The notes under the pieces are model-generated. The model ran no database searches and was not told the origin of the DNA. It worked only from the letters and a program-made list of their open reading frames with translations. Below are positions 5,187 through 51,920 of a DNA stretch of 64,000 nt, one piece after another. How positions within the stretch are numbered: position 1 is the first letter of the stretch; each line of letters opens with the position of its first letter. The DNA is taken from positions 310,001-374,000 of the forward strand of contig NZ_QUOK01000004.1 of NCBI RefSeq assembly GCF_003390325.1. The letters are read 5' to 3'. The stretch comes from Rhodohalobacter sp. SW132. GTDB lineage: Bacteria > Bacteroidota > Rhodothermia > Balneolales > Balneolaceae. The translations under genes were made by a program, and so were the position numbers.

Positions 5187-5689
5187 GGCGACTTGTATTT
5201 TGAGATTTTCGATTTATATACTCTATCTCCTCAGAATTTTCAGATGCTGGACTCAAACCGTTCAGAAACGACCCTCATTACATAAAGTGTGCTTCTATTT
5301 ATAACTGCGTAAAAGAAATTGCAGATGGGACATTTTGATATCAAAGTTACTGAAGACTCATTCAGATTTATTCAAACCAAAAATTATTTGTGAAGCCGGA
5401 AGCCTTTTGCCCCAAGGGCCCGGTAGTTAACGGTATGCTATGGCTAGCCTGTGAATTTTAAGCACCTGGCTGCTTTGTATGCTCTATAATAGTCCCTCTT
5501 GACCGACTGTAAAGCCGGCAGAGATAGCAGTTAGTGCCATTCTTTAAAAAAATAGTGATCTGGAAAAGGAGGCTTTTCAAATATGGACTCATTCTTCTTA
5601 CTGCTGATCGATTGGCTTTAGTAAACCTGAAACAATCTCAGGTCATCGATTCAGGCCAAAAAAGATCGCCCCTCCAGATTCTACGTTAT
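5187..5689. other. Gene-poor stretch upstream of the copper operon
   Basis: No convincing gene on either strand. The lower end should hold the promoter of the copper operon. On the plus strand AAGGAGG precedes an ATG at 5582 that opens only a 12-codon frame (MDSFFLLLIDWL); I regard it as chance. Confidence 0.4.
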
Positions 5690-6090
5690 CTATTTTTCCG
5701 GATACGGACTCTCCACTATCCCAAGTTGTGTCCAAAAACCAAGTTCATTCCAGTTATACCAGTATTCTGAAATGCGCCCGTCCTTAATGCCAAACAGTAT
5801 GGTTTCTGTTGCCCATACTTTTTTCCCATCAATATCGTGGCCTAATAATTTTCCTTCGCAGGTACCGGTATAAACTATGCGAACTGTCACGTAGTCGTCG
5901 GATCCTGCAAGTATAGTGGTTCAAGGTTAAAATCAGGAAAGGTCTCCCAGGCTCTGCGGATCATATTCAGTAAAAAATCAGGCTCATGTTCCTCAACATA
6001 TATTTTGATCTTTTCAACCAGTACAACCTGCAAGGCATCGGGGTCTTGGGCGTTATAGGCCTCAATATATTGCATGGTAAGGGCTTCCAC
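5690..6090 (-). pseudogene. SnoaL-like gene split by a frameshift near 5900
   Basis: Two adjacent minus-strand frames make one SnoaL-like (polyketide-cyclase/ester-cyclase) protein of about 133 residues. The first half (from 6090) opens MEALTMQYIEAYNAQD and ends in LEPLYLQ before going out of frame; the second continues DDYVTVRIVYTGTCEGKLLG and ends ISEYWYNWNELGFWTQLG, which is the usual C-terminal signature of the family. At the break the sequence reads TTGCAGGATCC. Restoring one G to give GGG would join the frames as ...LQGSDDYV..., so a one-base homopolymer loss explains it. Whether this is a true mutation or an assembly error cannot be told from sequence. A second NTF2-like gene lies just upstream at 6109-6495. 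Confidence 0.75.
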
Positions 6091-6108
6091 GAATACAAAT
6101 TAGACAGT

Positions 6109-6495
6109 CTAACTATCCGATAAACTGCTGTTAAATATATCACGGTGTAGTTTCCATTCACCCCCCTTGAGCTTCCAAATGACAATATATTTTGATCGGT
6201 CGAGAATTTCTTCGTTCTGATTCATTAAAATTGCGTTTCCAACTTCAATAGCGGTATTCCCGTAATGTTCAACTTCCGAGGTTTTCAGTTGAATTTGCTC
6301 AATGCCCATCTCCATCACTGCCTGCCAGAATTTTTTTATGGCATCTCTGCCTGTAACGAAATCCGCGTTCGGAGGCAGCACTTCCCCGTCTATTGAAAAC
6401 AGCTGAGATACTCCTTCCGCATTACCGCTGTTGTACCTCAGCATGAATTCCTGATTTCTGTTTTCAATGGTATTTCTGATGGCCAGGTTTGCCAT
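6109..6495 (-). CDS. NTF2-like/SnoaL-like protein (DUF4440-type)
   Basis: Small cytoplasmic protein of 128 residues without a signal peptide. The pattern (long N-terminal helices with RYNSGNAEGVSQLFSIDGEVLPPNADFVTGRDAIKKFW, then YGNTAIEVGNAIL and YIVIWKLKGGEWKLHRDIFNSS) is typical of the NTF2-like superfamily of the DUF4440/SgcJ kind. Such proteins bind small hydrophobic ligands or catalyse small-molecule reactions; no catalytic residue set is clear here. The start is supported by AAAGG about nine bases before the ATG at 6495. It lies 18 bases upstream of the frameshifted SnoaL-like gene on the same strand, so the pair was probably co-transcribed. Specific function unknown. Confidence 0.8.
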   Translation of the reverse strand: MANLAIRNTIENRNQEFMLRYNSGNAEGVSQLFSIDGEVLPPNADFVTGRDAIKKFWQAVMEMGIEQIQLKTSEVEHYGNTAIEVGNAILMNQNEEILDRSKYIVIWKLKGGEWKLHRDIFNSSLSDS

Positions 6496-6709
6496 AATTA
6501 GTACCTTTTTATTTGATATAATGGAAGTTTAAAAACATTGAAACTCAGCCCTCCTTTTCTCCAATTGCTGATTTTCAAACTTTATCCCGATTCGCGTTAA
6601 ATGATCTTACCCTTTATTTTTTAAGCGTGAGTTTTCGGGCTTGTTCAAAGCCATCGGTCCGCAGGCAGACTCTTAAACCTCGAATCTTTGATTTAATACA
6701 ATTATTGAG

Positions 6710-9700
6710 TTAGAAATCTGGCCATTCTGTTGGAGGATGATCACTTTCCTTCCAGTACCCGCAAAGGTGTTTAGTCGACGGTGCAGGATCATGAAACATG
6801 TCTATCACTCCGCCAAAACGTATAGATCCCGTGATCGACGCATCACCTGGTCTTAACGCTCCTGGTCCATCAGAGAATGTGAGGCTGAAAGCTTCCCCAC
6901 TAAAGACAGCAATTTCTTCGCCAACAACTTCAATAATATCTCTCCGGAGTGAAAGAACCTGGCCCCCAACGGGCAAGTTATCCGGATCCCATGTTGGGGC
7001 CCCCCACGACACTGCATTTAAATTTAAATCCGGTAATGGATGTGGATCCGTCGTGAATTTCACTCCAAAATTACTAATGTATCTGTTATATGGCGGCAAC
7101 TGACTGGGTTCAGAGTAATTTTTAACCACGATATTATATTCACCCTCATGTGAAAATCCTTCTAAATCTACTGAGACTCCTACCAGGAAATCGTCTAAAG
7201 GCGTCGGATAGATTACTTGATATGATTGTCCATCGTTTAGTATACCCACACCGTCATCATCACCAAAACCAACAACACATTCACCTATAAGATGATGGTT
7301 ATCAGTTACCACTTCAATGTAAGAGCATATCGGTTCATCCACTACAGTAAAACTGATCTCATCGATTAGAGGATCATCAAACTCCGGTGGAAAGTATTCG
7401 AATTCGATGGCAATATCTCCGGGCCCACCAGGAGCAAATTCGCCTTCAGAACTGAGGGATCCTGACCCTTCAATGAACGTGTAATTTACTTGATCAAAGG
7501 GTACTTCGTCACCGGCAAAGGTGGCCGAAAAATTGATTGTTTCCTCAAGTCCGAGACATACAGGATCGGGCGCTACATTAAAATCGCCAACGACAACTGT
7601 GGCGCGGCCTATGCGCGGCGGCTCGCCATCAGCCCGCGCGCCGGTTTCGGCCGTGCTGGTTGCCCGAACAATATTGGAGCCTTGTTCCATTGGAGCTGCA
7701 TAGGTCACATCCTGATCGAATTCTCCTTCGATGTTAATGAAAAATCCGTCGTCGGCACTCCATTCAACCGTTTTATCAATAGCATTTTCCACCTCCGCAA
7801 AGAGGTCGATTTCCTGACCAGGCTCAACGATAAACGGTGACGTTCCTCCCCCAGGGCCAGTGATGGTTACATCTATTTTTTGTACTTCTATGAAGGTATT
7901 GTTTACGGCATCTTGTCCCAAGAACACATCCCCACCTTTAGTTCGCACCCGCAATTCGGAAACACCAACAGCATTCGCCAAATAACCTCTTTCATCGTCT
8001 GTAAAGACAATTGAGGGTTCGCCTGTTTCCGTTTCTTCAATCCGAAGCTCCCACTCGAAATACTCCTTTTCGTCAGGATCTGAACGTTTTGGGTTATGGT
8101 CCACCTCATAAGGCCGCGCATCAAAATCTCTTTCTACAATATCGAGGTCCTCCATTTCGTCAACAAGGATATCTGTGATTTCACCGATGAGCTCTTGGGC
8201 TAGTTCACTGCGTCCTGACTTTCGGGCTAACATGTTTGTTACATTTCCTGCCCCAAGTTGTGGTATCGGCTCCATTGCCATGATGAAATTGAACGTGTAG
8301 TCCTGGCTTTTTGCGCTCAATACTCCCTGCCATCCACCCGCTTGCTCGTCGTCCTCTTTGTATAATGCCGGATCGGCTTCTATTTCAAGGTGTGTTAACT
8401 CCGCTGGCAAAAGGTGGTACATGAGATCGGCATACATCCGGAGCGCCTCCATCATGGATTCGGACATCGCGGCTGCTTCTGCCAGTTGTGAAACGGGATC
8501 GAACGCTCCTGGGTCTTCCGGCCCATAGCTGGCAATTAAACCGATAATTTTATCCTGAGGAGCGCGTACCGTTCTAATTGTCTCTCTTAACCGGTCAAAT
8601 ACTTCGAGAGCCCCCATCCAGCAGTCCAGCTGATCAGGTGTGGAGATATTCCACGGAAGCTCCAGACACTCTGGCATATGCGGCTCCATTTCAGCCTGGG
8701 TAACGAGAGCAGCCTCATTTCCATTTTGAAGATTATCCATTAGAGAGGTATACCCGGCCTCAGCCGCCAGTGCATTGACAAGTTCCAATGCATCATCCAG
8801 CGATTCACCTTCGAGCCTCGGCGCATCCCCGGACAACCTGTTGCGGAGATTGTTCGGATAGTTCGGGCTATCGATCATCTGAAAACCTGCTGCGAGTGGT
8901 GCAAGTAACACTTGTTCATCATTAAGCTCAGAAATATTGATATGACGAAGCTCTTCCGGATCGTACCCAATCCGGTCTGTTTCACCCTCGAGGAACTCCT
9001 CCAATTCGTCAATCAGGCCCGCAAACAGACCCTGTGCAGGCTCCAGCGGCTCAACATTGAACTCTCGGCCCGGACACACAAACTCCTCGTTTTCATCAAA
9101 AAAGGCGATCTCCCCCGGTCCTCCATCCATCACGTTGCCCGGATGAAGCGGCACTACAAGCACTGCAGCATCGCCGGCCGTGCGTTCGACGTAGACCAAG
9201 TGTCGATCTTCGTTGCCGGGAGACTCGATCGATGCATCATAGAGCCAAGCCCACGGCTCATCGCCAAATTCCTCAGCAAGCCCATATAGATCAACTTCAT
9301 TGGTTGGTCGAGCTGAATGTTCAGCTAATTCAATGTCTTCACAAACTGATAGATCAAATCCTGACAGGGCGCTTAACAGGTATTGCAAGTGGGGAGGGAC
9401 CGGATCGGGAAATCCGTCACCGAAGTTTTCAGTAACGAGTGCTTCGAGCGCTGCGACCAGTTCGTCGGCGGATTTATTCTCAAGAGCATCCATAGCCGCC
9501 TCGACGGTCTCCTGCAAATCTTCCTTTGAAATGAGTGTGCCCATCATCAGATCTGGACCCCAATACTCTGCGGCTAACGTTGTTGCCGTGTTTACGTAGC
9601 CCGAGGCGTACTCATCTGCGTCGTGAACGATTGCAGAAAGACGAGGCTCGGAGTCTACGATCACAAGTGCGTCGATTCCTACCGGCACGTCCTCGGCCTC

Positions 9701-27854: not shown

Positions 27855-27920
27855 CTGCAGGTTTAAAATTTAAAAGTAGTGAGGGTTGTGAGTATAAAGA
27901 AAAAATTGTGATCATGCTTG

Positions 27921-28310
27921 TGCCTTCGAACAGCTATGTGGAAATCTCGCAACGGCGCGACGGCGCGGTGTGTTTTGGGGGATAATAGATGAGAATGGTC
28001 TTTTTGCCTTCGAGTAACTGTGTGGGATTCTCGCAACGGCGTTAAGGCGCAGAGTGTGGGCCCTCGCAACGGCGCGGTGTGTTTTGGGGGATGCGAGATG
28101 AGAATAGCCTTTTTGCCTTCGAGTAACTATGTGGGTAGCTCGCAACGGCGCTAAGGCGCAGAGTGTAGGCCCTAGTAGTGGCGCGGTGTGTTAGCTTGGG
28201 GGATCATAGATGAGAATGGCCTTATCGCCTTTGAGTAACTGTGTGGGTTTCTCGCAACGGCGCTAAGGCGCAGTGTGTAGGCCCTCACAACGGCGTTAAG
28301 GCGCAGAGTG
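27921..28310. repeat. Four imperfect tandem repeats of 84-111 bp
   Basis: Units begin near 27921, 28005, 28114 and 28225 with TGCCTTCGAGTAACTGTG or a close variant, and contain CTCGCAACGGCG, TTAAGGCGCAGAG, GCGCGGTGTGTT and GATGAGAATGG. The first unit lacks about 30 bases in the middle. The frames across this stretch are repeat shadows, so I call no gene between 27855 and 28369. Confidence 0.8.
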
Positions 28311-31064: not shown

Positions 31065-31195
31065 TACCGCAGAATAACCAGCTAATAACCGCAGAGTTGC
31101 ACAGTGTTATCCGCAGAGGGTCACCGAGTTTCTATATTCCACAGTGCGACACTGTTGTGTACTCTGTGTCCCACTGTGGTTAATAACCACGGAGT
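31065..31195. repeat. Degenerate palindromic repeat of the ACCACAGAG/CTCTGTGGT type
   Basis: Imperfect member of the family seen more clearly at 45281-45376 and 46101-46196. It runs from ACCGCAGAATAACCAG through ACAGTGTTATCCGCAGAG to CTCTGTGTCCCACTGTGGTT, with several short sub-repeats. Confidence 0.65.
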
Positions 31196-31211: not shown

Positions 31212-31523
31212 TTAAAGAAGTGATTTAAAAATTGTATTACTTCCGGGATCCATTCGGCTATGGTGGACAGTCAGGATATCAGCCTGATCATCATTTACTA
31301 AACGGTATATTATCCTGTAATATCCAAGAATAATTTCCCTTATTGAATCATCATCAATTTCGGGAACGATCCTGCCCGCCCTGATTTGGCTCTCAAGTAC
31401 TTTTACAGCCTTAAAAAACCTCTCCGTTTGAATGGAAGCATATACACGGGAATCTTTTGCTATATATTCAGCGATCTGGTCAATATCGTTAATAGATTGA
31501 GGCGTCCACCTTACCCGAGCCAT
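31212..31523 (-). CDS. RelE/ParE family toxin
   Basis: 103-residue basic protein of the RelE/ParE superfamily: MARVRWTPQSINDIDQIAEYIAKDS opening helices, AVKVLESQIRAGRIVPEIDD, then the strand pair REIILGYYRIIYRLVNDDQADILTVHHSRM. This resembles ParE-type plasmid stabilisation toxins, which act on gyrase or on mRNA depending on the subfamily. It overlaps the small upstream gene (31511-31705) by 13 bases, the standard antitoxin-first arrangement. The pair sits inside a polysaccharide locus between the 2-epimerase and a deacetylase and could have arrived by insertion. Confidence 0.85.
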   Translation of the reverse strand: MARVRWTPQSINDIDQIAEYIAKDSRVYASIQTERFFKAVKVLESQIRAGRIVPEIDDDSIREIILGYYRIIYRLVNDDQADILTVHHSRMDPGSNTIFKSLL

Positions 31524-31705
31524 TTACCGAGTTTTTGTTTTGCTTCTTCGGTGCTTACTGTTTTCTTATCCTTTGATTGCTGCAGGCCGGTTTCAATTTT
31601 TTCAATCACCAATAACCGCTCAAACAGCTCATCAACCGAAAACTGGTCCGGCAGCTGTTCAAGGCCCTGAATTACACTTTTTTTGGAAATCATATCTATA
31701 CTCAT
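31511..31705 (-). CDS. Putative antitoxin of the ParE-like toxin
   Basis: 64-residue acidic helical protein (MSIDMISKKSVIQGLEQLPDQ, then KQKLGKWLG at the end) whose stop lies inside the toxin gene. The arrangement and size mark it as the partner antitoxin. It resembles small addiction-module proteins of unknown fold more than Phd or ParD. The ATG at 31705 is preferred to one seventeen codons upstream because the shorter form begins a compact helix; no ribosome-binding site decides it. It presumably binds the toxin and autoregulates the pair. Confidence 0.7.
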   Translation of the reverse strand: MSIDMISKKSVIQGLEQLPDQFSVDELFERLLVIEKIETGLQQSKDKKTVSTEEAKQKLGKWLG

Positions 31706-31850
31706 TTTTTCAAAAATATATCGAATAAAATCAAAACCTGCAGGATGTATTACCATTCAAATACCGTACAGGTTTAGGAGTTGAAAAGGAAGTTTATACG
31801 TTTATATAGCCAAGATTAACATTAAACCCATGAGCATTCCAATATAGTTT

Positions 31851-31977
31851 ATGCGTTTATTCATTCACTTCGTGAATTTGTTTATCCGTTTATGAACACC
31901 TAACTACATAAACTTATAAACGGATAAACCCTTAAACCTTTCAACTGATAAACTTATAAACTAATCAACCCATAAAC
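31851..31977. repeat. Low-complexity ATAAAC repeats with a 13-bp inverted repeat
   Basis: TTTATCCGTTTAT at 31881-31893 pairs perfectly with ATAAACGGATAAA at 31916-31928. Around it the words ATAAAC and TTATAAAC recur up to the deacetylase stop at 31978. Confidence 0.7.
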
Positions 31978-39222: not shown

Positions 39223-40287
39223 TCATTGAAATGTAATATTATGTACAATACCTGCCATATCAAGTGCATATTTTAACCGAAGATCGTAACACTGATTTCG
39301 TGCAAAATCACCAAATTCAGAGATCCAATTATTGTCTCTATAAACATATCTCGCAGGCTTCCCATCAATCAGCATTTGATAAGGATCTGATTGTCCAAAA
39401 TAGGTTTGAATTTCGTTTACCAGATATTTACCGTCCGATGTTTCAAATAGATCATATGCTGCACTTTTGATTTCAAGTTTATCTGAAATCTCTTTTACAA
39501 ATTGTAAAACAGATAATGGCGGATTCTCATACCCTTTCAGTTTGGAACCGCTTGCCATCCCACTTTCTGCAATTTTTTTGTGCGCAAAATATGACTCCCC
39601 AATTCGAACTACCCGCCACTCATATTCATGAGGAATAAATTCCTGAAAAAGAATTTCACCCTTTTGACGGTATTGGTAGCGTTTGCGATATGCATTCAGT
39701 TTTTTTAGTAGTACACCTGGATTTGTTATTTTATTCCAGGTTCTGGAAAGTTTATTCCCCTGCCTTAGATTTGGCCCAATTCGTTTTGGAAAACCCCTTC
39801 CTTTAAAAACTTCATAAACGAGTTTCTCTGCTTCAATTTTATTCCTAAGAAATTTTATACCAACACCGCCTGCACCTGAATTTGATTTAGCAATTATTGG
39901 ATAGGATTTTGATTCATTAAAGATATAGTCAAGCCCTTTTTCGTATTCTGTATAATAGTATGTCTTGGGATGAGGAATATCATTTTCAACCAATATTTTT
40001 TGTAACTCAGGTTTGTTCTCATAGATTTTTATTGCTTTAAAGTCAGGATAAATCGGGACATCGTAATTTTTCAAGACTTGAAGATGTATTTCATCATATT
40101 TTCTTTTTTTATAAATATCAAAAGAGTTAGGACATCCTATTACAATATTCGGTTTAAATTGAGAAATCTTAGTATTCCAATCTTCTTCAATTTTTGAGCA
40201 AACATAATCTGCTTGGATTCTTTCAAGTGCATTAATCCATTTTGATGAAAATGTTGACTCATTATCCGATATAATTAATACAGTCAT
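39223..40287 (-). CDS. ATP-grasp domain protein
   Basis: Cytoplasmic 354-residue ATP-grasp protein, unrelated in detail to the one at 34365. Seen are an N-terminal pre-ATP-grasp part (IGCPNSFDIYKK), YPIIAKSNSGAGGVGIKFL for the ATP-binding loop, LFQEFIPHEYEWRVVRIG for the second ATP contact and YDLFETSDGKYLVNEIQTYFG for the metal-binding Glu/Asn. It may ligate an amino acid or other acid onto a polymer sugar, or form an activated intermediate. The AT content is high, as in the neighbouring Wzy, GT2 and Wzx genes. It starts about 200 bases after the Wzy gene, with a relic of another wzy in the gap. Confidence 0.83.
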   Translation of the reverse strand: MTVLIISDNESTFSSKWINALERIQADYVCSKIEEDWNTKISQFKPNIVIGCPNSFDIYKKRKYDEIHLQVLKNYDVPIYPDFKAIKIYENKPELQKILVENDIPHPKTYYYTEYEKGLDYIFNESKSYPIIAKSNSGAGGVGIKFLRNKIEAEKLVYEVFKGRGFPKRIGPNLRQGNKLSRTWNKITNPGVLLKKLNAYRKRYQYRQKGEILFQEFIPHEYEWRVVRIGESYFAHKKIAESGMASGSKLKGYENPPLSVLQFVKEISDKLEIKSAAYDLFETSDGKYLVNEIQTYFGQSDPYQMLIDGKPARYVYRDNNWISEFGDFARNQCYDLRLKYALDMAGIVHNITFQ

Positions 40288-40333: not shown

Positions 40334-40444
40334 CTATTCAGATAAACTATTCATTGAACTTATGATACCACTCATGAACAGCATTAATAGTCCTCTTAAT
40401 CCATAATTAGACCATTCACCAACTATTGCAAATAACAAAGCCAT
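40334..40444 (-). pseudogene. Relic of the 3' end of another O-antigen polymerase gene
   Basis: A 36-codon frame that reads MALLFAIVGEWSNYGLRGLL, then MLFMSGIISSMNSLSE and a stop. It matches the C-terminal pattern of the intact polymerase just upstream (SGGWGNITFRTFIMLYLGA), which has the same G-W-N-R-M-L spacing. It lies in frame with the intact gene, 14 codons after its TAA. It is too short to be functional and reads as a leftover of a former polymerase allele. Confidence 0.5.
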
Positions 40445-40486
40445 TACTTTTTTTTGTATAATATTGAATTCAGTACAATGTACGTT

Positions 40487-41731
40487 TTACTCGCTTTTTT
40501 CATTAAGATAAATAGTCTTCATTACACCTAAACAAGCTCCCAAATAAAGCATTATAAATGTTCTAAAAGTAATATTTCCCCACCCACCAGAAATAGACAT
40601 CAGCAATGACATTATAATGACTACAAAAATTATGGTTTTTAATTCCCGTATCTCTCTTATATCCTTTAAATGTTTGTAGTACTTATTATTTTCCAGAAGA
40701 ATCATTATATGCAACCATAGATATAAAAACAGTCCAATTAAACCAGCTCCATATAAATAAACTGAATAATCAACATGAATAGACCTATTGAATCCAAAAC
40801 CTGGCAAAACTCCCACATGATCAAATAAATCTTTTCCAAAAAAAGTTGATAAAATTCCATCTTCAGACACAACTTCCACTGTTGTAATAAACTCACCTAC
40901 CCTATCAGTTCTTTCTTCAGCTATCTGCTGAATATTGCCCATTCTCTCGATCAAATCTCTCCTGTGTTCATAACGATCTAATAATACATTAATATAAATG
41001 GGTGAAGTTATAAGTAATATCAATCCAGATATAACTATATATTTGGAGATTCTTATTTTATAAGGGCTATAATAAATATATGTAAGTAACCCTGCAATAA
41101 GTGCAAGTAATGCACCTCTTTTAAAACCAATGACAACAATTAATAAAGTTGTTATAGTGATGAATAATAGCACATATTTATTAGACGCATAATTTTCCTT
41201 TTCATCTATAAACATGGTGTAGTAAACAGGCACTGCAACCAGTAGTATCAACATATCTTTAACAATATTGACATTTGTTTGACCAGTATAAAAAGTGCCC
41301 TCTAAATAAGTAGATATTCCAATGCCAAGTATATTTGAAATAATAATATATATACAGATTAAAGTTAGTATATATATGTAAGTTCTATTCAGCATTTCAA
41401 ATCGCCTAACGGAATTAACCACATAATAACCAATAGGAAGCATCATAAGAGTAATGTATACTCTTGAAAACATTGTCAGTGAGTAAGCAGGATTCTGTGA
41501 AAAGAGAGCCAATAAAAATAGGTAAATTAAAAATAAATAAACATATAAGGTAAGTCTGTTTAATTTTAAATTGCTTAATAAAAAATATGTTACGAATATT
41601 ATAGCAACATATCCTCTTATCAACCCTAAATGAATATTCCCTCTTGCCCCTGATTCAACAAGCAAAACTACACTATTAAGTAGCAGAATTGCAATAACAA
41701 TCCAAAATTCAAATTTACTCTTCAACTTCAT
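40487..41731 (-). CDS. O-antigen ligase/polymerase family membrane protein (Wzy-like)
   Basis: Inner-membrane protein of 414 residues with about eleven hydrophobic segments. The large loop before the C-terminal helices carries the usual polymerase feature (DRYEHRRDLIERMGNIQQIAEERTDRVGEFITTVEVV, then LPGFGFNRSIHVDYSVYLYGAG), similar to the periplasmic loop of O-antigen polymerases and ligases. As a single such gene next to Wzx and Wzc it is probably the polymerase. Sequence conservation in this family is poor, so the call rests on topology and position. It is AT-rich, with a 33-base gap to the upstream GT2 gene. The stop is followed by a relic of a related gene end. Confidence 0.8.
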   Translation of the reverse strand: MKLKSKFEFWIVIAILLLNSVVLLVESGARGNIHLGLIRGYVAIIFVTYFLLSNLKLNRLTLYVYLFLIYLFLLALFSQNPAYSLTMFSRVYITLMMLPIGYYVVNSVRRFEMLNRTYIYILTLICIYIIISNILGIGISTYLEGTFYTGQTNVNIVKDMLILLVAVPVYYTMFIDEKENYASNKYVLLFITITTLLIVVIGFKRGALLALIAGLLTYIYYSPYKIRISKYIVISGLILLITSPIYINVLLDRYEHRRDLIERMGNIQQIAEERTDRVGEFITTVEVVSEDGILSTFFGKDLFDHVGVLPGFGFNRSIHVDYSVYLYGAGLIGLFLYLWLHIMILLENNKYYKHLKDIREIRELKTIIFVVIIMSLLMSISGGWGNITFRTFIMLYLGACLGVMKTIYLNEKSE

Positions 41732-41764: not shown

Positions 41765-42598
41765 TTACAGATTGTTTTTCATGTGATCGTGAACTTTAAA
41801 TACCTCTCTAAGTTGTATGCTAAAAAGTAAAGATCTTATTTTTTTTTGATATCTTTTCTTTAGATAATGTTTAGCATCTTTCTTTTTACCATCAGGACAA
41901 AATCTGGATACATTTGCAATTAATGAATCAAAGTAAGGTAGGTTAGCATCTCTGTTCCGATCACTTACTCTTCCTTCAACTGTTTTCTTATGTAATGCAC
42001 CGGGAAAATTATAAAATGCAACTTTATAGTTTAACGCAATTTTAAACCACATATCTAAATCCGGACCATGGTTAAGTGATGTATTAAAAAAACCAACTTT
42101 TTTAAAAACATCTTTTCTTATCACCACAGTATCAGAACTCGCAATTGATGATTTTGCTGATCTAATAAGATAATCTTCAACAAGACCTTTGTAGTTATTT
42201 TTCAAACCAATAAAGCGTTTTCTCTTAATTTTATCTGGGTATTCTAAATTATATCCACTGCAGTACATGCCCGCCTCAGGATATTCTTTTATTAAATCAA
42301 CCATATTCAATAGATAATCATCATACCAGATATCGTCAGCATCCAAAAATGAAATCAGTTTGTAATTAGCTTCTTCAATACCTCTATTTCTTGCAGTTGC
42401 CTCTCCACCATTATTTTTATTAACCAATTTCACTTTCTCATCTTTTATATCCCTGACCTTATTAACACTGTTATCAGTTGACCCATCATTAACTACAATA
42501 ATTTCAAAATTCTTATACTTCTGATTAAGAACTGAGTGTATAGTTTCTGTTATATACTTTTCTTTATTATAAAGTGGAACTATTACAGATATATACAT
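41765..42598 (-). CDS. Glycosyltransferase family 2
   Basis: Cytoplasmic 277-residue GT-A enzyme. The start ISVIVPLYNKEKYITETIHSVLNQKYKNFEIIVVNDGSTDNS is the classical nucleotide-sugar binding part, and ISFLDADDIWYDDYLLNMVDL holds the DxD motif. The tail is helical and basic. It adds one residue during repeat-unit assembly on the lipid carrier. It lies between Wzx and Wzy on the minus strand with short gaps (14 and 33 bases), an arrangement typical of O-unit assembly. AT-rich like its neighbours. Confidence 0.92.
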   Translation of the reverse strand: MYISVIVPLYNKEKYITETIHSVLNQKYKNFEIIVVNDGSTDNSVNKVRDIKDEKVKLVNKNNGGEATARNRGIEEANYKLISFLDADDIWYDDYLLNMVDLIKEYPEAGMYCSGYNLEYPDKIKRKRFIGLKNNYKGLVEDYLIRSAKSSIASSDTVVIRKDVFKKVGFFNTSLNHGPDLDMWFKIALNYKVAFYNFPGALHKKTVEGRVSDRNRDANLPYFDSLIANVSRFCPDGKKKDAKHYLKKRYQKKIRSLLFSIQLREVFKVHDHMKNNL

Positions 42599-42611: not shown

Positions 42612-43913
42612 CTATTGCTTTGGTTTTATTATTGAAAATATTGCGTAACTACTATAAGTATAATATATACTCATGAAGATAGTATATAGAATCAAGGTTG
42701 AATAAATTTCATATTCAAAGAAATATGATAATGTAAATGGTATAGTCGCCAATAGTATCTTAGAAAGATTTATTTTAAAATAGATGTTTTGCAGATTTAA
42801 AACATTTAATATGTTTATAAATGGTAGACTAAGAAATTGAAAGAATAAATAAATTGTGAGGATACTAGTAATTAATCCTGCTTGGTACCATTCACTTCCA
42901 AAAATAAGTTGAAACAGAAAGGGTGAACCGAAAAGCAAAATGGTACACGGAAGAATACTTACTATTGCTAATCGCTTGAGAATATTTATTGATAAATTGT
43001 AAATTTTTTCAGAATTATCTTTTCCAATCCTGGCAATTTCACTATAAAATGCTTGACCTGTTGATCTTCCCAAAAGCCCTATAGGAATGCCTATAACTGT
43101 CATCGCTAAACCCAATTGTCCAGTGGTATTAGAACCAAATTGGAATGCAAAATATAGCACTGGAATTTTACCTGCTACTATTAAAAGGAATTGTGACGGT
43201 AAGCTATACATCGGGAGTTCCTTATAATATCGGAGTAAGAAGAAAATCTTTTTGAAAGTAACTTTATACCAATAATTTCTAAAATCTTTTAAGAATATTT
43301 TTAGAAAAGCTAATATTCCACCTGCCTTCTTGAGAACAACTCCAATTAATAAACCAATTGGTTTCAATCCAAATAAACCTAATCCGATTTTGGCACTTGC
43401 AGAAAATACGGATTGCCAAACACTTGTTTTTGCAACTACATCAAAAGATTTTTTTCGGATTGCCCATTGTGACAATAATTCAAAAATTGACGCCCCAGCC
43501 AAACCCAATATAAGTAACCACCAGTAAGAAGTGATTTCAACCATGTTAAAAAATGCGAAAATCAACTCTCCATAAAATAAAAGTATTATAGTACAGAAAA
43601 GTGTTATCAAACCAATTAAACTTAGTATCAGAATAAATAAATTAAATGCTAATTCATCGCTTTTTGGTAAAAGTAATGCAACTATATATCGCATGTCTGC
43701 AAAAACAAGAAGTATCACCAGAGCTGCCGTAAATACAGCAAGAATTCCAAAATGTTCAGGTGTATAAATTCTTGTAATAAATGGCATTGCTGCTAACCCA
43801 ATAATTTTGGCAATACCAGTTCCCGACGCAAGAATACTCATGTTTTTGAAAACATTTTTTGTAGAACCTTCACCAAGAACTTTATTAAATATATTTTTAA
43901 TTATTCTATGCAA
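42612..43913 (-). CDS. Polysaccharide flippase (Wzx, MOP/PST family)
   Basis: Inner-membrane protein of 433 residues with about 12-14 hydrophobic segments. The N-terminal part matches the Wzx/PST family (NMSILASGTGIAKIIGLAAMPFITRIYTPEHFGILAVFTA), and FGSNTTGQLGLAMTVIGIPIGLLGRSTGQAFYSEI is typical of the central part. It flips the lipid-linked repeat unit across the membrane. The exact start is uncertain: the given 43913 is a TTG, the next Met is at 43841, and no ATG lies between the upstream stop and that point. The 5' end borders a relic of a DegT gene (43985), so the gene may have been truncated or its start displaced during a recombination. Confidence 0.9.
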   Translation of the reverse strand: MHRIIKNIFNKVLGEGSTKNVFKNMSILASGTGIAKIIGLAAMPFITRIYTPEHFGILAVFTAALVILLVFADMRYIVALLLPKSDELAFNLFILILSLIGLITLFCTIILLFYGELIFAFFNMVEITSYWWLLILGLAGASIFELLSQWAIRKKSFDVVAKTSVWQSVFSASAKIGLGLFGLKPIGLLIGVVLKKAGGILAFLKIFLKDFRNYWYKVTFKKIFFLLRYYKELPMYSLPSQFLLIVAGKIPVLYFAFQFGSNTTGQLGLAMTVIGIPIGLLGRSTGQAFYSEIARIGKDNSEKIYNLSINILKRLAIVSILPCTILLFGSPFLFQLIFGSEWYQAGLITSILTIYLFFQFLSLPFINILNVLNLQNIYFKINLSKILLATIPFTLSYFFEYEIYSTLILYTIFMSIYYTYSSYAIFSIIKPKQ

Positions 43914-43984
43914 TAAAGCTATTCTTAAGTTGAGGATTAAATTCTTAAAGTATTCAGTAGTTACAGTTCACAGTGTGTCATTGG

Positions 43985-44137
43985 TCATATATTCTCAATT
44001 ATTTCACCTCTGATTTCATTCTGATCATCAATGTTGAGGAATGGATGCATGGGCAAACTCATCACTTCCTTTGAAGCCTTTTCGGACTCTGGAAAATCAC
44101 CATATGTATAGCCTAAATGTTCGAATACCGGCTGCTC
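43985..44137 (-). pseudogene. Relic of the 3' end of a DegT/DnrJ/EryC1 aminotransferase gene
   Basis: Fifty codons and a stop that match the C-terminus of the intact aminotransferase just upstream: EQPVFEHLGYTYGDFPESEK then ASKEVMSLPMHPFL against the intact EQPVFEHLGHEYGDFPESEK and ASREVLSLPMHPFL. By eye 36 of 50 residues are identical. Both copies end near the same sequence (CAGTGTGTCA). The remainder of the relic's gene is missing, so it reads as the broken end of a second allele. Confidence 0.85.
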
Positions 44138-44155
44138 TTTACAGTGTGTCAGTGT

Positions 44156-45250
44156 TCATAGTAATTCAATCAATTTTGTAGCTATTTCCTTCTGCTCATC
44201 CTCGCTGAGGAATGGATGCATCGGTAAACTTAACACTTCACGAGAAGCCTTCTCAGATTCGGGGAAGTCACCATACTCATGTCCCAGGTGTTCGAATACA
44301 GGCTGTTCATGAAAACACTTCGGGTAGTAGACGCCAATCGGAATTCCTGACTCTTTCATGCCGGCAACGATTTCGTCCCGCCTCCCTTCATCCACGCGGA
44401 TGGTGTACTGGGCGTAGACGTGGGTGTTGCCATTCAAAACTTTCGGTGTGGTGCAGTGTTCTTTTAACAATTCGCTGTAGCGGGCGCCAATATCGCCTCG
44501 TTTTTGTATTTCATCCGCAAACCCGGGCCACTTGCCTAAAATGACGGCCGCCTGCATGGAGTCGAACCGCCCGTTGGTGCCTACATGGGTGTGGTAGTGG
44601 CGCTTCACGCCGCCGTGGGTGCGGATGGCGCGGATGGTTTCGGCGAGGTCGTCATCGTCCGTAAACAGGGCCCCGCCGTCGCCATAGCAGCCGAGCGGCT
44701 TGGCCGGGAAGAACGAGGTGCTGCCCACCAGCGAGGCCCCGCAGCTTTTTTTACCGTTGCGGGTGGCGCCAAAACTCTGGGCGCCGTCTTCCATCACGGC
44801 AATGTCGTGCTTTTCGGCAATGGCGTTAATGGCTTCCATCTCCGGCATCTGTCCAAAGAGGCTGACGGGGATGATGGCTTTGGTGTTATCCGTGATGGCG
44901 GCTTCAATCTTTGAAGCGTCCATATTAAACGTATCGTGCTCAATATCTACAAAAACCGGCGTGGCACCCACCAGCATGATCACCTCCGCCGAACTGATCC
45001 ACGAAAACGGAACCGTAATCACCTCATCGCCCGGCCCAACGCCCAGCGCCCGCAGGGCAATCTCCAGGGAGTGCGTACCGCTGCTGGTCGTAATGCAATG
45101 GCTCACCCCCACATAATCCGCCAGCGTCTCCTCCAGCTCATGCACTTCCGGGCCCATGATGTATTGGCCGTGTTCTAATACTTTGTGAATACGGGTATCA
45201 ATTTCCGTTTTATATTTCTCGTACTGTGATTTTAAGTCAATAAATTCCAT
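44156..45250 (-). CDS. DegT/DnrJ/EryC1/StrS aminotransferase (WbpE-like)
   Basis: Cytoplasmic 364-residue PLP-dependent sugar aminotransferase. Key parts: ITTSSGTHSLEIALRALGVGPGDEVITVPFSW, then VFVDIEHDTFNMD, VMEDGAQSFGATRNGKKSCG, and the PLP lysine in TSFFPAKPLGCYGDGGALFT. With the dehydrogenase at 46193 and the acetyltransferase at 45384 it fits the WbpB-WbpE-WbpD route, where WbpE transaminates the 3-keto sugar to make UDP-GlcNAc3NA. It is the third of these in transcription order. The gene has higher GC than the Wzx side, so a composition boundary lies at ~44 kb. Activity is inferred from family and context. Confidence 0.93.
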   Translation of the reverse strand: MEFIDLKSQYEKYKTEIDTRIHKVLEHGQYIMGPEVHELEETLADYVGVSHCITTSSGTHSLEIALRALGVGPGDEVITVPFSWISSAEVIMLVGATPVFVDIEHDTFNMDASKIEAAITDNTKAIIPVSLFGQMPEMEAINAIAEKHDIAVMEDGAQSFGATRNGKKSCGASLVGSTSFFPAKPLGCYGDGGALFTDDDDLAETIRAIRTHGGVKRHYHTHVGTNGRFDSMQAAVILGKWPGFADEIQKRGDIGARYSELLKEHCTTPKVLNGNTHVYAQYTIRVDEGRRDEIVAGMKESGIPIGVYYPKCFHEQPVFEHLGHEYGDFPESEKASREVLSLPMHPFLSEDEQKEIATKLIELL

Positions 45251-45280
45251 TTCGGAGTCCTAATTAAGTTCGTTTTGGTG

Positions 45281-45376
45281 AACCACTAAGGTCACAAAGA
45301 TATCCACAAAGGACACAGTGTATATTGTTTTTCTTTGTGCGTCTTTGTGCATTCCTTTGTGTACCTCTGTGGTTAA
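45281..45376. repeat. 96-bp imperfect palindrome between wbpE-like and wbpD-like genes
   Basis: Begins AACCACTAAGG and ends CCTCTGTGGTTAA, with ATCCACAAAGGACACAGTG and CTTTGTGCATTCCTTTGTG inside. It is nearly the same as 46101-46196, and both are 96 bp long. Related members lie at 31065-31195 and 48469-48515. Confidence 0.8.
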
Positions 45377-45383
45377 CCCCCAC

Positions 45384-46082
45384 CTATTTAAATTCATCGT
45401 AAGTTTTTGATCCGGATGAAAGATCCTCCGGCAGTGATTCTTCCTCATCCAGATCGAGGCATTTAAGCTGTTCTGCTTTTCCTGCACCTTGAACCCTGTG
45501 CCCTGTACCTTGTACTAACTGATACCTAAACCCACTTTCAGGACAGACCATGATGCCGTCCGGATCCGGATCAGAGAGATGATGCCCATGCCGACTCATC
45601 CACCCTTTCTGCTTTGCGGGGTTGCCGAGCATGAGGGCGTAATCGGGGACGTCTTTGGTCACTACTGCCCCTGCCCCGATAAATGCGTATCGTCCGATGG
45701 TGATGCCGGGCACCACCGTGGCGTTAGCGCCGATGCTGCAGCCTCTTCGGAAAAGAGTCTTTTCATACAGCGAATGGCGGTTCACCTGGCTTCGGGGGTT
45801 CGTGACGTTGGTCAGCACACAGCTCGGGCCGAGGAACACTTCATCCTCCAGCTCGCAGCCGGTGTAAATCGAAACGTTGTTCTGCACCTTCACCCTGCTG
45901 CCGATCTTCACATCATTCGCCACAAACACATTCTGCCCAAACACACAGTTCTCGCCGATCTCTGTATTTTTAGAAATATGACAGAAGTGCCAAATCTTCG
46001 TGCCGCTGCCAATGGAGACGGGTTCGTCTACGTAGACGGATTCGTGAATTTTTACGTTATCGATGTTTGTGTTACGAGGCAT
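45384..46082 (-). CDS. UDP-sugar N-acetyltransferase, left-handed beta-helix (WbpD-like)
   Basis: 232-residue LbH acetyltransferase. The repeats [60 protein letters not shown], then [43 protein letters not shown], are close to WbpD/WlbB, which acetylate UDP-GlcNAc3NA on C-3. It lies between the WbpE- and WbpB-like genes. The ATG at 46082 is chosen; an in-frame GTG at 46106 lies within a repeat and is unlikely. Near the C-terminus residues [20 protein letters not shown] look like translated repeat DNA, inserted after the conserved CPESGFR. The downstream tail ([25 protein letters not shown]) is the normal end. Confidence 0.9.
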
Positions 46083-46100
46083 ATTTTTAATTTTTTTTTT

Positions 46101-46196
46101 AACCACAGAGGTTCACAAAGGTATCCACAAAGGACACAGTGTATATTATTTTTCTTTGTGTACCTCTGTGCATCCCTTTGTGTCCTCCGTGGTTAA
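46101..46196. repeat. 96-bp imperfect palindrome between wbpD-like and wbpB-like genes
   Basis: Begins AACCACAGAGG and ends TCCTCCGTGGTTAA. The TAA stop of the WbpB-like gene (46193-46195) lies inside its end, so the repeat abuts or overlaps the coding region. The GTG at 46106 would extend the downstream gene but sits in the repeat and is rejected. Confidence 0.8.
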
Positions 46197-47146
46197 ACCC
46201 CCAGTTCTTCTATACTCGGATGCATTATTCCTTTCGGATTCTCCGTCAATTCCATAGTTCGTAGTTTATGCACCAATTCTATTGATGGTCGCGCGTCATC
46301 AATGCCAAAGCCGTTGCCATTTATGGTCTCCTCGTATACTTTTGTGTGCAGATCGGTGAAGCCGCCGCTGAACTCCAGCTCTTCGCCGTCCACGGTGATG
46401 GTGCGGTAGGTACGCTTGCCATCGCCGGCACTTGTGGGTATATCCTGCGGTTCAAGTGAGAGGTACCACTCCACATCGGCGTTCGGCAATTCGAGGAAAC
46501 CGCCCATGCGGTTCTTTTCACGCACATACAGCTCTACGGTATCCGGGGCACCAAAAAGCCACATCAGCATATCAAAAAAGTGGATCCCGATGTTGGTACC
46601 GATTCCACCCGATTTTTCCATATTCCCCTTCCAGGAGTAGTGGTACCACAGCCCGCGCGAGGTGATGTAGGTCAGCTTAATCTTATGGCGTTTGCCGTTG
46701 TTCCGTGTAGCCAGCTTCTCTTTCAGCTCCACAATTGACGGGTGCACCCGAAGCTGCAGAATGGTCCACACCCGCTGCCCGTACTCCTCTTCCAGCTCCT
46801 GCAGTACATCCAGGTTCCAGGGGTTCAACACCAGTGGTTTTTCGCAGATGACGTCCGCATCCACACGCAGTGCCAGGCGGATGTGCGCATCATGCAGGTG
46901 ATTAGGAGAACAAACCGTCAGGTAATGAATCGCATCGCCGTTCATGGCCCTCCTACACTTTTCCAGGTGGCGGTCGAACCGTTCTACCTCGGTAAAAAAG
47001 CTGGCGTCCGGGAAGAAGCTGTCAATAATCCCCACGGAGTCATGGGGATCAACGGCAGCCACCAGACGGTTTCCCGTGTCCTTAATCGCTTTCAAATGTC
47101 TCGGTGCAATGTACCCGGCCAACCCAGTCAATGCGAAGTTTTTCAT
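46193..47146 (-). CDS. Gfo/Idh/MocA oxidoreductase (WbpB/WlbA-like dehydrogenase)
   Basis: Cytoplasmic 317-residue NAD-dependent dehydrogenase. N-terminal Rossmann region FALTGLAGYIAPRHLKAIKDTG, then VCSPNHLHDAHIRLALRVDADVICEKPLVLNPWNLD with the catalytic Lys in EKP, and the C-terminal GGIGTNIGIHFFDMLMWLFG. This is the pattern of WlbA/WbpB, which oxidises C-3 of UDP-GlcNAcA to the 3-keto sugar. Its partners follow on the same strand (WbpD-like, WbpE-like). The UDP-GlcNAc 6-dehydrogenase needed first (WbpA) is not in the window. The last residues are GV and the stop falls within the repeat at 46101-46196. Confidence 0.93.
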   Translation of the reverse strand: MKNFALTGLAGYIAPRHLKAIKDTGNRLVAAVDPHDSVGIIDSFFPDASFFTEVERFDRHLEKCRRAMNGDAIHYLTVCSPNHLHDAHIRLALRVDADVICEKPLVLNPWNLDVLQELEEEYGQRVWTILQLRVHPSIVELKEKLATRNNGKRHKIKLTYITSRGLWYHYSWKGNMEKSGGIGTNIGIHFFDMLMWLFGAPDTVELYVREKNRMGGFLELPNADVEWYLSLEPQDIPTSAGDGKRTYRTITVDGEELEFSGGFTDLHTKVYEETINGNGFGIDDARPSIELVHKLRTMELTENPKGIMHPSIEELGV

Positions 47147-48650: not shown

Positions 48651-51056
48651 CTAAGCCTTTTCCTTATGATATTCATCATACGCTTCATAGGCGTAATAGT
48701 AGTTGTCGTTTCCGTAGTAATAGTCGGAGCTCTTATGGTGGTCGAAGCCTAAGAGCACGGTGCCAAGGATGTTTGCGTGAATTCGCTCCAGGTTCCCCAG
48801 GGTGTGTTCCAGCTGGGTCTCTTTGGTCTTGTTAAACCTGGCCGCTACAACAATACCATCTGCCAGGCGCATCATCGGCGCGGCGTCAGTAATAATTCCG
48901 TACGGGGCCGTATCAATCAGAATATGGTCGTATCGTTCTTTCAGTTCAATAATCAGCTTTCTAAGAGCTTCACTCTGATTAATGGCTGCCGGGTTGGGCG
49001 TCTTCGTCCCGGCCATCAGCAGATCGATACCGGGTGCGGCAGACGGTTTAATTGCCTCTTCAAGCGTAACATCCTCAAACAAGACTTCTATCAAACCGGG
49101 GCGTTGAGATTCCTTCCAGAGAATATGCAGTTTCGGGCGCCTGAGGTCAAGGTCTACTATGAGCACTTTTTTACCCGCTTCGGTCAAGGCCACAGCTAAG
49201 TTGCTAACAATTGTGGTTTTCCCCTCGCCCTGCGCAGAACTGGTTACAAGGATGGTCTGAAATTTCTCATCCGGCTGCGAGTAGACAATATTGTTATGCA
49301 ATCGCCGGAACGATTCCGCCACCGGAGAGATGCGATCCACGAGCGTCAGTATGGTTGAAGATACCTTCCGGCCATCTGCTACGGGAATGGTATCATCCCC
49401 TTTAAATTTCTCTTTAACCACTTTTTTAATATCAGGGATCACCGACAGTACCGGGTAGTTCAGTTTTCTCATTTTTTCAGTGCCGTCAATTACTTTGATG
49501 AGGGCCTCACGTCCAAACGCATATCCCATACCCACAACGCCGCCAAGCAGCAGGCCGATCAGGCCGATCATACGGGTTCGCGGCTCCACCGGTCTTCCCG
49601 GCATCATCCCGTAATCCACCGGCCGGCCGAGGCCAAACTGTGTCTGCTCCCAGAACGCGGTTTCGGCGTACTGGTCGGATACGGTAAGGAAAAGCTGTTC
49701 ATTTATTTGCACGTCACGCTGCAGGCGGGCAAATTCTACCATATTCTGCGGCAGATTTTCAAAAAACCGGTTCTCCTCGGTCAGCCGCTCGTCTAGTACT
49801 TCCTGCTGCGCCTCGTGCTGGCTTTTTTCCACATTCAGTTCAATCAGGCGGGTCCGGAGATCCAGCAATCGCCCTGCAATACCGCCATCGCTGCTCCTCA
49901 GAAACGTGAGGTACTCTTCCGACTCATCCACCAGCCGTGATGCCACGCGGTTAATTTCTTCCTTCAGCATCGCAATATTATTGTTGATTTGTACCAACTG
50001 GGGCTCCCGCTCAGGGTTCTCCCGTAGTCCGGGATTGCGGTTGAGCAGCAGCATTCGCTCGGTCTCCAGTTCGGCAAGCTGAAACTGAAGTCGCTCCATG
50101 CTTGAGCCTACACCCTCGGCAAACTGCTGGGCCAGGCCGGGGCGGATCTCATCAATCTGCCGTTCGTAGTTTTCAATCGCCGTATTGATTGCCACAAGAC
50201 GGGTACGCACCTGTTGCTTTTGACTTTCAAGTTCTGAAATACGTGTAATCAGCTGCTGGGTCTGTCCGTCCACAGCCACGATGCCGGAGCGGTCCATAAA
50301 TTGTTTCAGCTGCTCCTCCTTTTCCCGAAGGTTTTCCTCAATCTGCCGCCGTTCGTCCTCCAGGAACCTCATCGCAGAGTTGGCCGCCATCCTGTTCTGG
50401 TCTGTAGAAAGTTCAGAATAAGAATTAATTGCCTCGTCCACCATCCACTGTGCTTCCATCGGCGAGTAACTGCGGAAGCGGATTTCGACCACTTCCGTGT
50501 CGCGGTCAACTCTGCCATACGAGATATTATTCCGTATCCGCGTCGCAACTGCACCGGCACTCACTACCGTTGAATCGATTGGATATTCTTGCCAGAGTAC
50601 CGGAAACCGCTGGCCGTTTTCCATCAGGTCCTGCTGCATCACTTTATCGGCCAGCATGTTAGACATCCGCCGTGAGCGCATAATCTGCAGCTCATTGCCC
50701 AGCGTGCTGCCCATACCAAAACCGTAGGTAGCGCTCAGAAGCTCAGACAGATCGCCCCCTATCTGTCCCCGGCTGCTCTGCGATTCGGTAATCAGCAGCG
50801 TGCCATTGCTTTCGTATACCGGGATAGTATTATAGGCGTAGGCGAGGGCACCTATCGTAAAGAGCAACGTAATGCCGATCACAGCCCACTTGCGCCGCAT
50901 GAGTACGGCAAAGAGATGTTTCAGGTCAATTTCGTCGTCCGGTGAGTGCCCGCGATCCCCACGCCCCTGCTGGCTGCCATTTGAATAATAGCCCCTGTTC
51001 CCATTATTGCTGCCACTGCGGTAGTTTGATGAAGGGTCGACATTGTTGTCTGACAT
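48651..51056 (-). CDS. Wzc-type polysaccharide co-polymerase with tyrosine kinase domain
   Basis: Inner-membrane 801-residue protein that controls chain length and export. The N-terminus is a Ser/Asn/Gly-rich cytoplasmic tail, then the first TM at ~57-75 (WAVIGITLLFTIGALAYAY), a long periplasmic Wzz-like part with coiled coil (~240-450), and the second TM at ~500-520 (IGLIGLLLGGVVGMGYAF). The C-terminal BY-kinase has a Walker A GEGKTTIVSN at about 605, the A' motif VLIVDLDLRRPK, Walker B HILIDTAP, and a tyrosine-rich tail (SDYYYGNDNYYYAYEAYDEYH) for autophosphorylation. It is the first gene of the polysaccharide locus in transcription order. A weak GGGGA lies nine bases before the ATG. A matching phosphatase (Wzb) is not seen in the window. 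Confidence 0.95.
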   Translation of the reverse strand: MSDNNVDPSSNYRSGSNNGNRGYYSNGSQQGRGDRGHSPDDEIDLKHLFAVLMRRKWAVIGITLLFTIGALAYAYNTIPVYESNGTLLITESQSSRGQIGGDLSELLSATYGFGMGSTLGNELQIMRSRRMSNMLADKVMQQDLMENGQRFPVLWQEYPIDSTVVSAGAVATRIRNNISYGRVDRDTEVVEIRFRSYSPMEAQWMVDEAINSYSELSTDQNRMAANSAMRFLEDERRQIEENLREKEEQLKQFMDRSGIVAVDGQTQQLITRISELESQKQQVRTRLVAINTAIENYERQIDEIRPGLAQQFAEGVGSSMERLQFQLAELETERMLLLNRNPGLRENPEREPQLVQINNNIAMLKEEINRVASRLVDESEEYLTFLRSSDGGIAGRLLDLRTRLIELNVEKSQHEAQQEVLDERLTEENRFFENLPQNMVEFARLQRDVQINEQLFLTVSDQYAETAFWEQTQFGLGRPVDYGMMPGRPVEPRTRMIGLIGLLLGGVVGMGYAFGREALIKVIDGTEKMRKLNYPVLSVIPDIKKVVKEKFKGDDTIPVADGRKVSSTILTLVDRISPVAESFRRLHNNIVYSQPDEKFQTILVTSSAQGEGKTTIVSNLAVALTEAGKKVLIVDLDLRRPKLHILWKESQRPGLIEVLFEDVTLEEAIKPSAAPGIDLLMAGTKTPNPAAINQSEALRKLIIELKERYDHILIDTAPYGIITDAAPMMRLADGIVVAARFNKTKETQLEHTLGNLERIHANILGTVLLGFDHHKSSDYYYGNDNYYYAYEAYDEYHKEKA

Positions 51057-51227: not shown

Positions 51228-51920
51228 ATGCATTCATGTGTCTCCACCCTACCAACCGGCCGGTGGATTTGCTCCGGTACGATCGTTGTGGATGACAGGG
51301 GCTATTTTGATTTCGGGCTGCTTGCTACCCGCATCGAGGACGAAAATTACTTCGTGACCCGGATGAAGTCCAATACAGTGTATGAGTCGATTGGCGAATG
51401 TGACCTTCCCGAGGAGGAAGACCAGCACATTCTAAAAGATGAACGTATTTATTTAACCGGGACAGCGGCCATAGAGGCGGGAATTGATCAGATTCTCTTG
51501 CGACGGGTGGCCATCTATAAAGCCGATGAGAACAAAATCATTGTCGTGATTACCAACAATAAGCAATGGTCGGCAGCCACAATTGGCGACTTATACAAAC
51601 GGCGGTGGCAAATCGAGATCTTCTTTAAGCTCATCAAGCAAAACCTGCAAATAAAAACGTTTTTAGGCACCAGCGAGAACGCTTGTAAGTCTCAGATCTA
51701 CGTTGCCATGATTGTATACTTGCTGCTGGAACTCATTCGCCGGTCGATCAGCAAAGTCTATCACTGCTTTGGACACTTTGTGACGCTCATACGAGTATGC
51801 CTGACGCAGTATAATCGTCTGGAATACATCACCAGCGAAATTCAGATTACTGTACAAAAAGCCAAAAAGAAGCATAAGCCACCACCGGATACCACCCAAC
51901 AATCGCTGGCGCTCGGGTAG
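51228..51920 (+). pseudogene. IS4 family transposase, 5'-truncated
   Basis: 230 codons of an IS4-type transposase. VVDDRGYFDFGLLATRI holds the second catalytic Asp, and YKRRWQIEIFFKLIK is the YREK signature Y-(2)-R-(3)-E-(6)-K with the catalytic Glu. The part with the first catalytic Asp is missing, and the start (MHSCVSTLPTGRWICSG) looks partly out of frame relative to the family. The C-terminal end (KKHKPPPDTTQQSLALG) seems complete. No terminal inverted repeats were found by eye. It is a non-functional insertion remnant, antisense to the flanking genes, at the edge between the polysaccharide locus and the giant-protein locus. Confidence 0.85.

Follow-up and report, generated by a model that had tools for sequence, protein, structure and literature searches.

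In the portion of a study of galactose-initiated O-antigen clusters of Salmonella that concerns the polymerase gene, remnants of wzy are reported in groups B1, D1 and others, those of B1 and D1 lying between wbaV and wbaU and being described as products of serial deletions (PMC3715488). The same portion reports that group D3 has part of wzy duplicated and that the D2 cluster arose by recombination between serogroups (PMC3715488). In the K loci of Acinetobacter baumannii, the part of the source that bears on leftovers describes the remnant sugar genes qnr and itrB2 (PMC3628348). A literature search for Balneolaceae with O-antigen and for Balneolota with polysaccharide biosynthesis returned nothing for those two pairings.

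The locus reported here resembles the Salmonella clusters, as these portions present them, in that an apparently non-functional piece of a polymerase gene was left in an O-antigen cluster (PMC3715488), and by this analogy it would be a further case of the known polymerase-remnant kind. It differs from them in that the piece is a 3' end only, immediately follows another wzy that is intact, and has a counterpart in a second gene-end leftover flanking the same block. With the A. baumannii K loci it shares gene leftovers taken as signs of an earlier event at the locus (PMC3628348); in the part of that source cited above, the leftovers are pathway genes, whereas here the tails of genes stand on either side of a wzx-wzy block.

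The window that we analyzed is a stretch of 64,000 nucleotides from Rhodohalobacter sp. SW132 (contig NZ_QUOK01000004.1, positions 310,001 to 374,000). In reading order on the minus strand, the locus consists of an aminotransferase gene, the aminotransferase relic, wzx, a family 2 glycosyltransferase gene (GT2), wzy, the wzy relic and an ATP-grasp-like gene:

44156..45250, minus strand: intact DegT/DnrJ/EryC1/StrS aminotransferase, 364 aa (PF01041, E 2.6e-113; 67-88% homologues)
44138..44308, minus strand: first copy of a 171-bp pair, intact aminotransferase tail with 18-bp flank (alignment; window self-comparison)
43967..44137, minus strand: second copy of the 171-bp head-to-tail pair, relic with 18-bp flank (self-comparison, 74%; alignment)
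43985..44137, minus strand: aminotransferase 3'-end relic, 50 codons and stop (DegT_DnrJ_EryC1, E 4.7e-5; alignment; divergence pattern)
42612..43913, minus strand: Wzx-type flippase of the block (PF13440, E 1.8e-8; 52% homologue in genome G036)
41765..42598, minus strand: GT2 of the block (PF00535, E 5.3e-37)
40487..41731, minus strand: intact O-unit/oligosaccharide polymerase-like gene (wzy), 414 aa (open reading frame; sub-cut-off matches to Wzy_C and PEP_O_lig_1; homologues)
40445..40486, minus strand: 42 bases (14 open codons) from the Wzy stop to the relic, outside the wzy alignment, holding or bordering the putative right junction
40334..40444, minus strand: putative wzy 3'-end relic, 36 codons and stop, in the Wzy frame (alignment to the Wzy C-terminus; controls; open frame)
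39223..40287, minus strand: ATP-grasp-like gene, 354 aa, next downstream of the wzy relic (weak NCBIfam ATP-grasp matches, all sub-cut-off)

In 500-base bins, the G+C content is 25-33% across the wzx-to-wzy block and 46-59% across the aminotransferase. The ATP-grasp-like gene gave no ATP-grasp match in Pfam at 1e-3; it has a 40% homologue in genome G086, among whose neighbours no Wzy homologue was found.

The intact Wzy passes no curated polymerase or ligase model at the Pfam and NCBIfam cut-offs, its matches to Wzy_C of Pfam (E 3.4e-4, 20.9 bits, cut-off 31.7) and to PEP_O_lig_1 of NCBIfam (E 1.3e-6, 27.6 bits, cut-off 188.1) both falling below them. We searched for its relatives in 128 genomes of the order, 394 of the phylum and 244 of the class, the own genome being counted in each set, and found homologues with 27-31% identity in 5 other genomes (E <=6.5e-22) and one more at 22% (E 3.6e-12); a search of plasmids gave no match. 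We call the gene wzy because of its position beside wzx and because of these 27-31% homologues, 4 of 5 of which lie near a wzx homologue (L030, L033, L034 and L048). Like those four homologues, the intact gene has wzx in its neighbourhood, and it lies beside glycosyltransferase genes.

Two gene tails around the block

The intact aminotransferase tail and the relic, each taken together with its flank, form a head-to-tail pair of 171-bp copies that are 74% identical; the left junction falls at 44137/44138, after the intact tail and flank. The translated relic matches the C-terminus of the family PF01041 (DegT_DnrJ_EryC1) above the cut-off (E 4.7e-5). Over the 40 codons of the pair that align without gaps, pS is 0.75 and pN is 0.13, and mismatches fall on the three codon positions 6, 4 and 20 times out of 40; when all 50 codons are read ungapped, pS is 0.73 and pN is 0.20. 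Since synonymous sites are saturated and the protein is conserved, the relic diverged as a working gene. The relic tail shares 75.2% DNA identity with the intact tail. At 11 other loci, the tail has 59.8-76.1% identity with the intact one of the window and 65.8-77.8% with the relic. Judging from these identities, relic and intact tail are about as distant as copies from different genomes, toward the closer end of the range. The divergence pattern firmly supports the relic as the tail of another lineage's working gene.

The flanks of the two tails show a feature of their own. After both aminotransferase tails, at 44141-44151 and 43970-43980, there are 11 identical bases (TGACACACTGT, minus strand), despite the saturated synonymous sites, and both flanks can be read as a gene start that overlaps the stop (M-x-x-D-T-L). 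The shared bases could be a recombination site or, equally, the common ancestral start of the next gene.

At the other end of the block, the Wzy stop lies at 40487-40489 on the minus strand, and the same frame then stays open for 50 codons, until a stop at 40334-40336. This run is composed of 14 codons (NVHCTEFNIIQKKV) followed by 36 codons (MALLFAIVGEWSNYGLRGLLMLFMSGIISSMNSLSE), all in the Wzy frame. From the base composition of the gap, an open run of 50 codons has a chance of about 0.5% (about 0.005), and the other frames of the gap contain 7 and 5 stops on the minus strand and 6, 1 and 5 on the opposite strand. In an ungapped alignment against Wzy from residue 374, close to its C-terminal end, the residues MALLFAIVGEWSNYGLRGLLMLFMSGIISSMN of the putative relic pair with MSLLMSISGGWGNITFRTFIMLYLGACLGVMK, and 11 of 32 positions are identical. 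A preliminary description of this DNA had placed a 36-codon piece 14 codons past the Wzy stop and in the same frame, had noted a G-W-N-R-M-L pattern common to the piece and the Wzy C-terminus, and had reported an aminotransferase relic at 43985. The coordinates of the piece proved right, the pattern is indeed present within the ungapped alignment, and the aminotransferase relic is real.

Replacement or local duplication

We consider it likely that the wzx-GT2-wzy block was brought in by recombination with the cluster of a divergent relative, and that both tails are scars of this replacement. The sequences themselves show the two pieces with their frames and pattern of divergence, and a border behind the aminotransferase that varies; that a transfer took place, in which direction, and how the ends were joined is what we infer. 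The incoming DNA would have carried a foreign aminotransferase tail, wzx, GT2 and wzy, exchanged as a unit. At the left join, the resident aminotransferase would have been kept whole and the 50-codon tail of the donor placed before wzx; at the right join, the incoming wzy would have been kept whole and the last 36 codons of the old resident wzy left behind. That both leftovers sit behind complete genes can be explained by selection, since joins that cut the sole copy of a gene would have been lost. Both leftovers are probably functionless today.

The preliminary description had proposed replacement of the block by recombination in conserved 3' ends, with leftover gene ends on both of its sides. 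The case for these being remains of genes diverged elsewhere is strong for the aminotransferase tail and moderate for the Wzy tail, and replacement itself is probable; the mode of joining needs correction, because after a crossover at matching positions a single hybrid gene would remain, with nothing left over. Both junctions instead come after the stop codon of a complete gene, 18 bases beyond it for the aminotransferase and about 42 for wzy, and the joins were therefore unequal or illegitimate. Homology-facilitated illegitimate recombination would make the join unequal at one end of the imported DNA; the likeness to our locus would lie in that unequal join. Gene-tail scars let swaps of surface-sugar blocks be read even with neither parent known. 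No donor or unrecombined recipient cluster was found, either with Wzy in the order, phylum and class genomes or with the piece in 58 genomes, the own one included.

The explanation that comes closest to this one is a local tandem duplication, in which slippage or unequal exchange would have duplicated the 3' ends of both genes where they lie, with decay of the second copy afterwards. It would account directly for the exact head-to-tail pair of 171 bp formed by the aminotransferase tail and flank, for the 11 bases that the two flanks have in common, and for the resemblance of the Wzy piece to the adjacent Wzy only. The head-to-tail geometry, however, is no argument for it, since any unequal join of two homologous clusters gives the same arrangement. 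Moreover, a decaying copy is not expected to combine saturated synonymous sites with a conserved protein, as the aminotransferase copies do, and none of 3,000 neutral simulations reached the observed score of the aminotransferase pair (0/3000).

For the Wzy tail, the comparison is less clear-cut. The DNA of wzy and of the putative relic differs at 42 of 96 bases, with a pS of 0.61, a pN of 0.39 and mismatches at the three codon positions of 17, 10 and 15 out of 32, a pattern unlike that of a clean coding comparison. Neutral decay nevertheless seldom produces the observed score of 58, which was reached in 4/3000 simulations with AT-rich mutation, 4/3000 with the region's own frequencies and 20/3000 with even base frequencies. 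In a mixed model, which constrained Wzy and left the relic neutral, 27 of 1,500 simulations reached the score and 9 of 1,500 reached it and stayed open; with both sequences constrained, 1,417 of 1,500 reached the score. These counts depend on substitution and acceptance weights that we chose ourselves. Since so few neutral simulations reach the observed score, the amino acid changes of the relic are more conservative than neutral decay gives, which lends moderate support to the wzy relic being the tail of another working wzy. Taking both ends of the block together, we regard local duplication as unlikely.

Polymerase tail or chance resemblance

A different objection is that only the aminotransferase relic is real, and that the Wzy-like piece is AT-rich DNA that happens to read as a membrane-like peptide. 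The local score between the piece and Wzy is 64, which was reached by none of 5,000 residue shuffles (maximum 58) and by none of 2,000 dinucleotide shuffles in which the shuffled gap was translated in three frames (maximum 39). When the 36 residues alone are compared with the full Wzy, the score is 61, reached by 1 of 5,000 shuffles. Since membrane proteins resemble one another, we also used as control 499 windows of fifty residues from 14 Wzx/Wzy-type proteins, some of them labelled by size and position alone, with Wzy C-termini excluded. None of the 499 reached 64; the top scores were 39 with the Wzy C-terminus and 44 with the piece.

The match goes beyond chance also in its arrangement, as it is collinear, C-terminal to C-terminal, in frame and next door, within a frame open for 50 codons. 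In the 5.08-Mb genome the best match of the piece, itself aside, is the C-terminus of the adjacent Wzy (E 0.061).

What speaks for a chance resemblance is that no polymerase but the neighbour matches the piece, and that other genomes give near-equal matches (E 0.064-0.27). The preliminary description had suggested a search of the piece against O-antigen polymerases, and this search recovered the adjacent Wzy, but no other polymerase and no family model. An absence of hits to polymerase C-termini was what it had named as refutation, and the result goes half of the way there. Six other polymerase-type C-termini (five from Wzy homologues, the sixth from an open reading frame of L052 that has the position of a wzy but no Pfam match) score 20-31 with the piece, which is at noise level; one of the six, from L048, scores 80 with the intact Wzy C-terminus. 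Among the family models of NCBIfam and Pfam, no polymerase model matches the piece, the sole match being a fungal domain (E 0.1). In 57 relatives, the 50-aa piece has matches in 12, all with E 0.064 or worse, and no parent gene was found among them. Three of these weak matches resemble what we take to be transporter helices; a family search did not bear this out, the 24-aa stretch of L012 having matched no Pfam family. A match in a genome of the same genus (G001, E 0.15) was considered as the parent and rejected, as no polymerase-length gene is read at that place.

The identification of the wzy relic therefore turns on one comparison, that with the adjacent Wzy. Since the piece resembles the six other C-termini no more than noise does, whereas the intact Wzy C-terminus does resemble one of them, it may have originated close to this very wzy. 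Given the controls, we still regard a chance reading as very unlikely.

The open frame, its ATG at the start and its conservation at protein level relative to Wzy could also be read as a live small membrane protein or as a readthrough extension of Wzy. This we hold to be highly improbable: none of its matches in the 57 relatives is better than E 0.06. The short-frame matches in G001 (63 aa), G031 (55 aa) and G035 (46 aa), with E 0.15-1.05, look like noise, the place in G001, the one that we opened, has no matching gene, and the similarity of the piece is confined to the end portion of Wzy. Finally, an assembly artefact that misjoined strain variants at both gene ends, to which the MAG titles of all ten records found might point, would need two separate joins pairing sequences 25% and 44% different in a contig 393 kb long, and hardly deserves belief.

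The border behind the aminotransferase and other features of the region

Comparing the first genes after the aminotransferase in 12 loci (11 genomes, the window included), we found no similar pair at a BLASTP E of 1e-3, where the next gene was defined as the first same-strand open reading frame of at least 100 aa only. The comparison left out G011 and G096, in which too few bases follow the gene, as well as G087, with 616 bases that are partly masked; G088 was taken to be the same record as L057, judging by the downstream gene and the coordinates. The BLASTP result overstates the variety of the border. Pfam assigns the next gene to the Wzx type both in the window and in L032. In addition, L090 and L027 share a NusG-like gene (56% identical), which in L090 is the first open reading frame and in L027 stands behind a 124-aa open reading frame that may not be a gene. 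Gene content thus changes at the border behind the aminotransferase among related loci, with those two repeats of kind.

A search for the aminotransferase tail in 244 genomes of the class, the own genome included, gave matches in 123. Besides that of the window itself, we confirmed one detached tail, a count that takes in none of the short frames in G478, G523, G528, G053, G086:C60 and G086:C193. It is found in L052 (LKNA01000095.1; G086:C155 by coordinates), where a decayed 3' part of the aminotransferase gene, with gaps and a stop, lies directly before wzx. The order of this locus is an intact aminotransferase (88%), a gene of the UDP-glucose/GDP-mannose dehydrogenase family, a gene of the epimerase family, the decayed tail and wzx.

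Three further candidates for detached tails were rejected: that in G191 is a frame break within one gene, and those in G537 and G086:C16 are truncated where their contigs stop. At the G191 locus (L088; G191:C1:2270000-2282000), the homologous aminotransferase is split over two frames, at 4708-7098 and 5994-6257, the larger of which continues into membrane-like sequence.

Detached-tail scars therefore look uncommon, although the border varies. Two scars round one block, with a second detached aminotransferase tail elsewhere, are a hint that the border behind this gene recurs. One may tentatively ask whether the 3' end of the aminotransferase is a preferred join point in the surface-polysaccharide clusters of Balneolaceae, where repeated unequal joins just past the stop, some leaving a gene-tail scar, would record the order of serotype swaps; we find this a doubtful, if possible, generalization.

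Other parts of the window contain repeats and candidate mobile elements. Direct repeats of about 110 bp at 45273-45381 and 46093-46201, 85% identical and accompanied by a partial inverted match (74%), flank an acetyltransferase-like open reading frame (45384-46106), the second repeat overlapping its first 14 bases. These repeats resemble the boundaries of a mobile cassette. At 31212-31756, among the polysaccharide genes and adjacent to one for UDP-GlcNAc 2-epimerase (PF02350), a gene for a ParE-type toxin (PF05016, E 2.9e-14) is preceded by a small gene without a good Pfam match; by its position, the latter perhaps encodes the antitoxin. The intergenic stretches 31086-31183 and 31845-31939 resemble L053:9787-9886 and L054:1209-1295, in polysaccharide clusters belonging to other Balneolaceae records, and 31916-31938 resembles L054:2099-2121; these likenesses suggest dispersed repeats. 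Part of a DDE transposase (PF01609, E 1.1e-15) is found at 51228-51920, beyond a chain-length-type gene at 48651-51056. Just outside the polysaccharide genes, at 27918-28295, lies a cluster of short repeated copies that are 79-89% identical.
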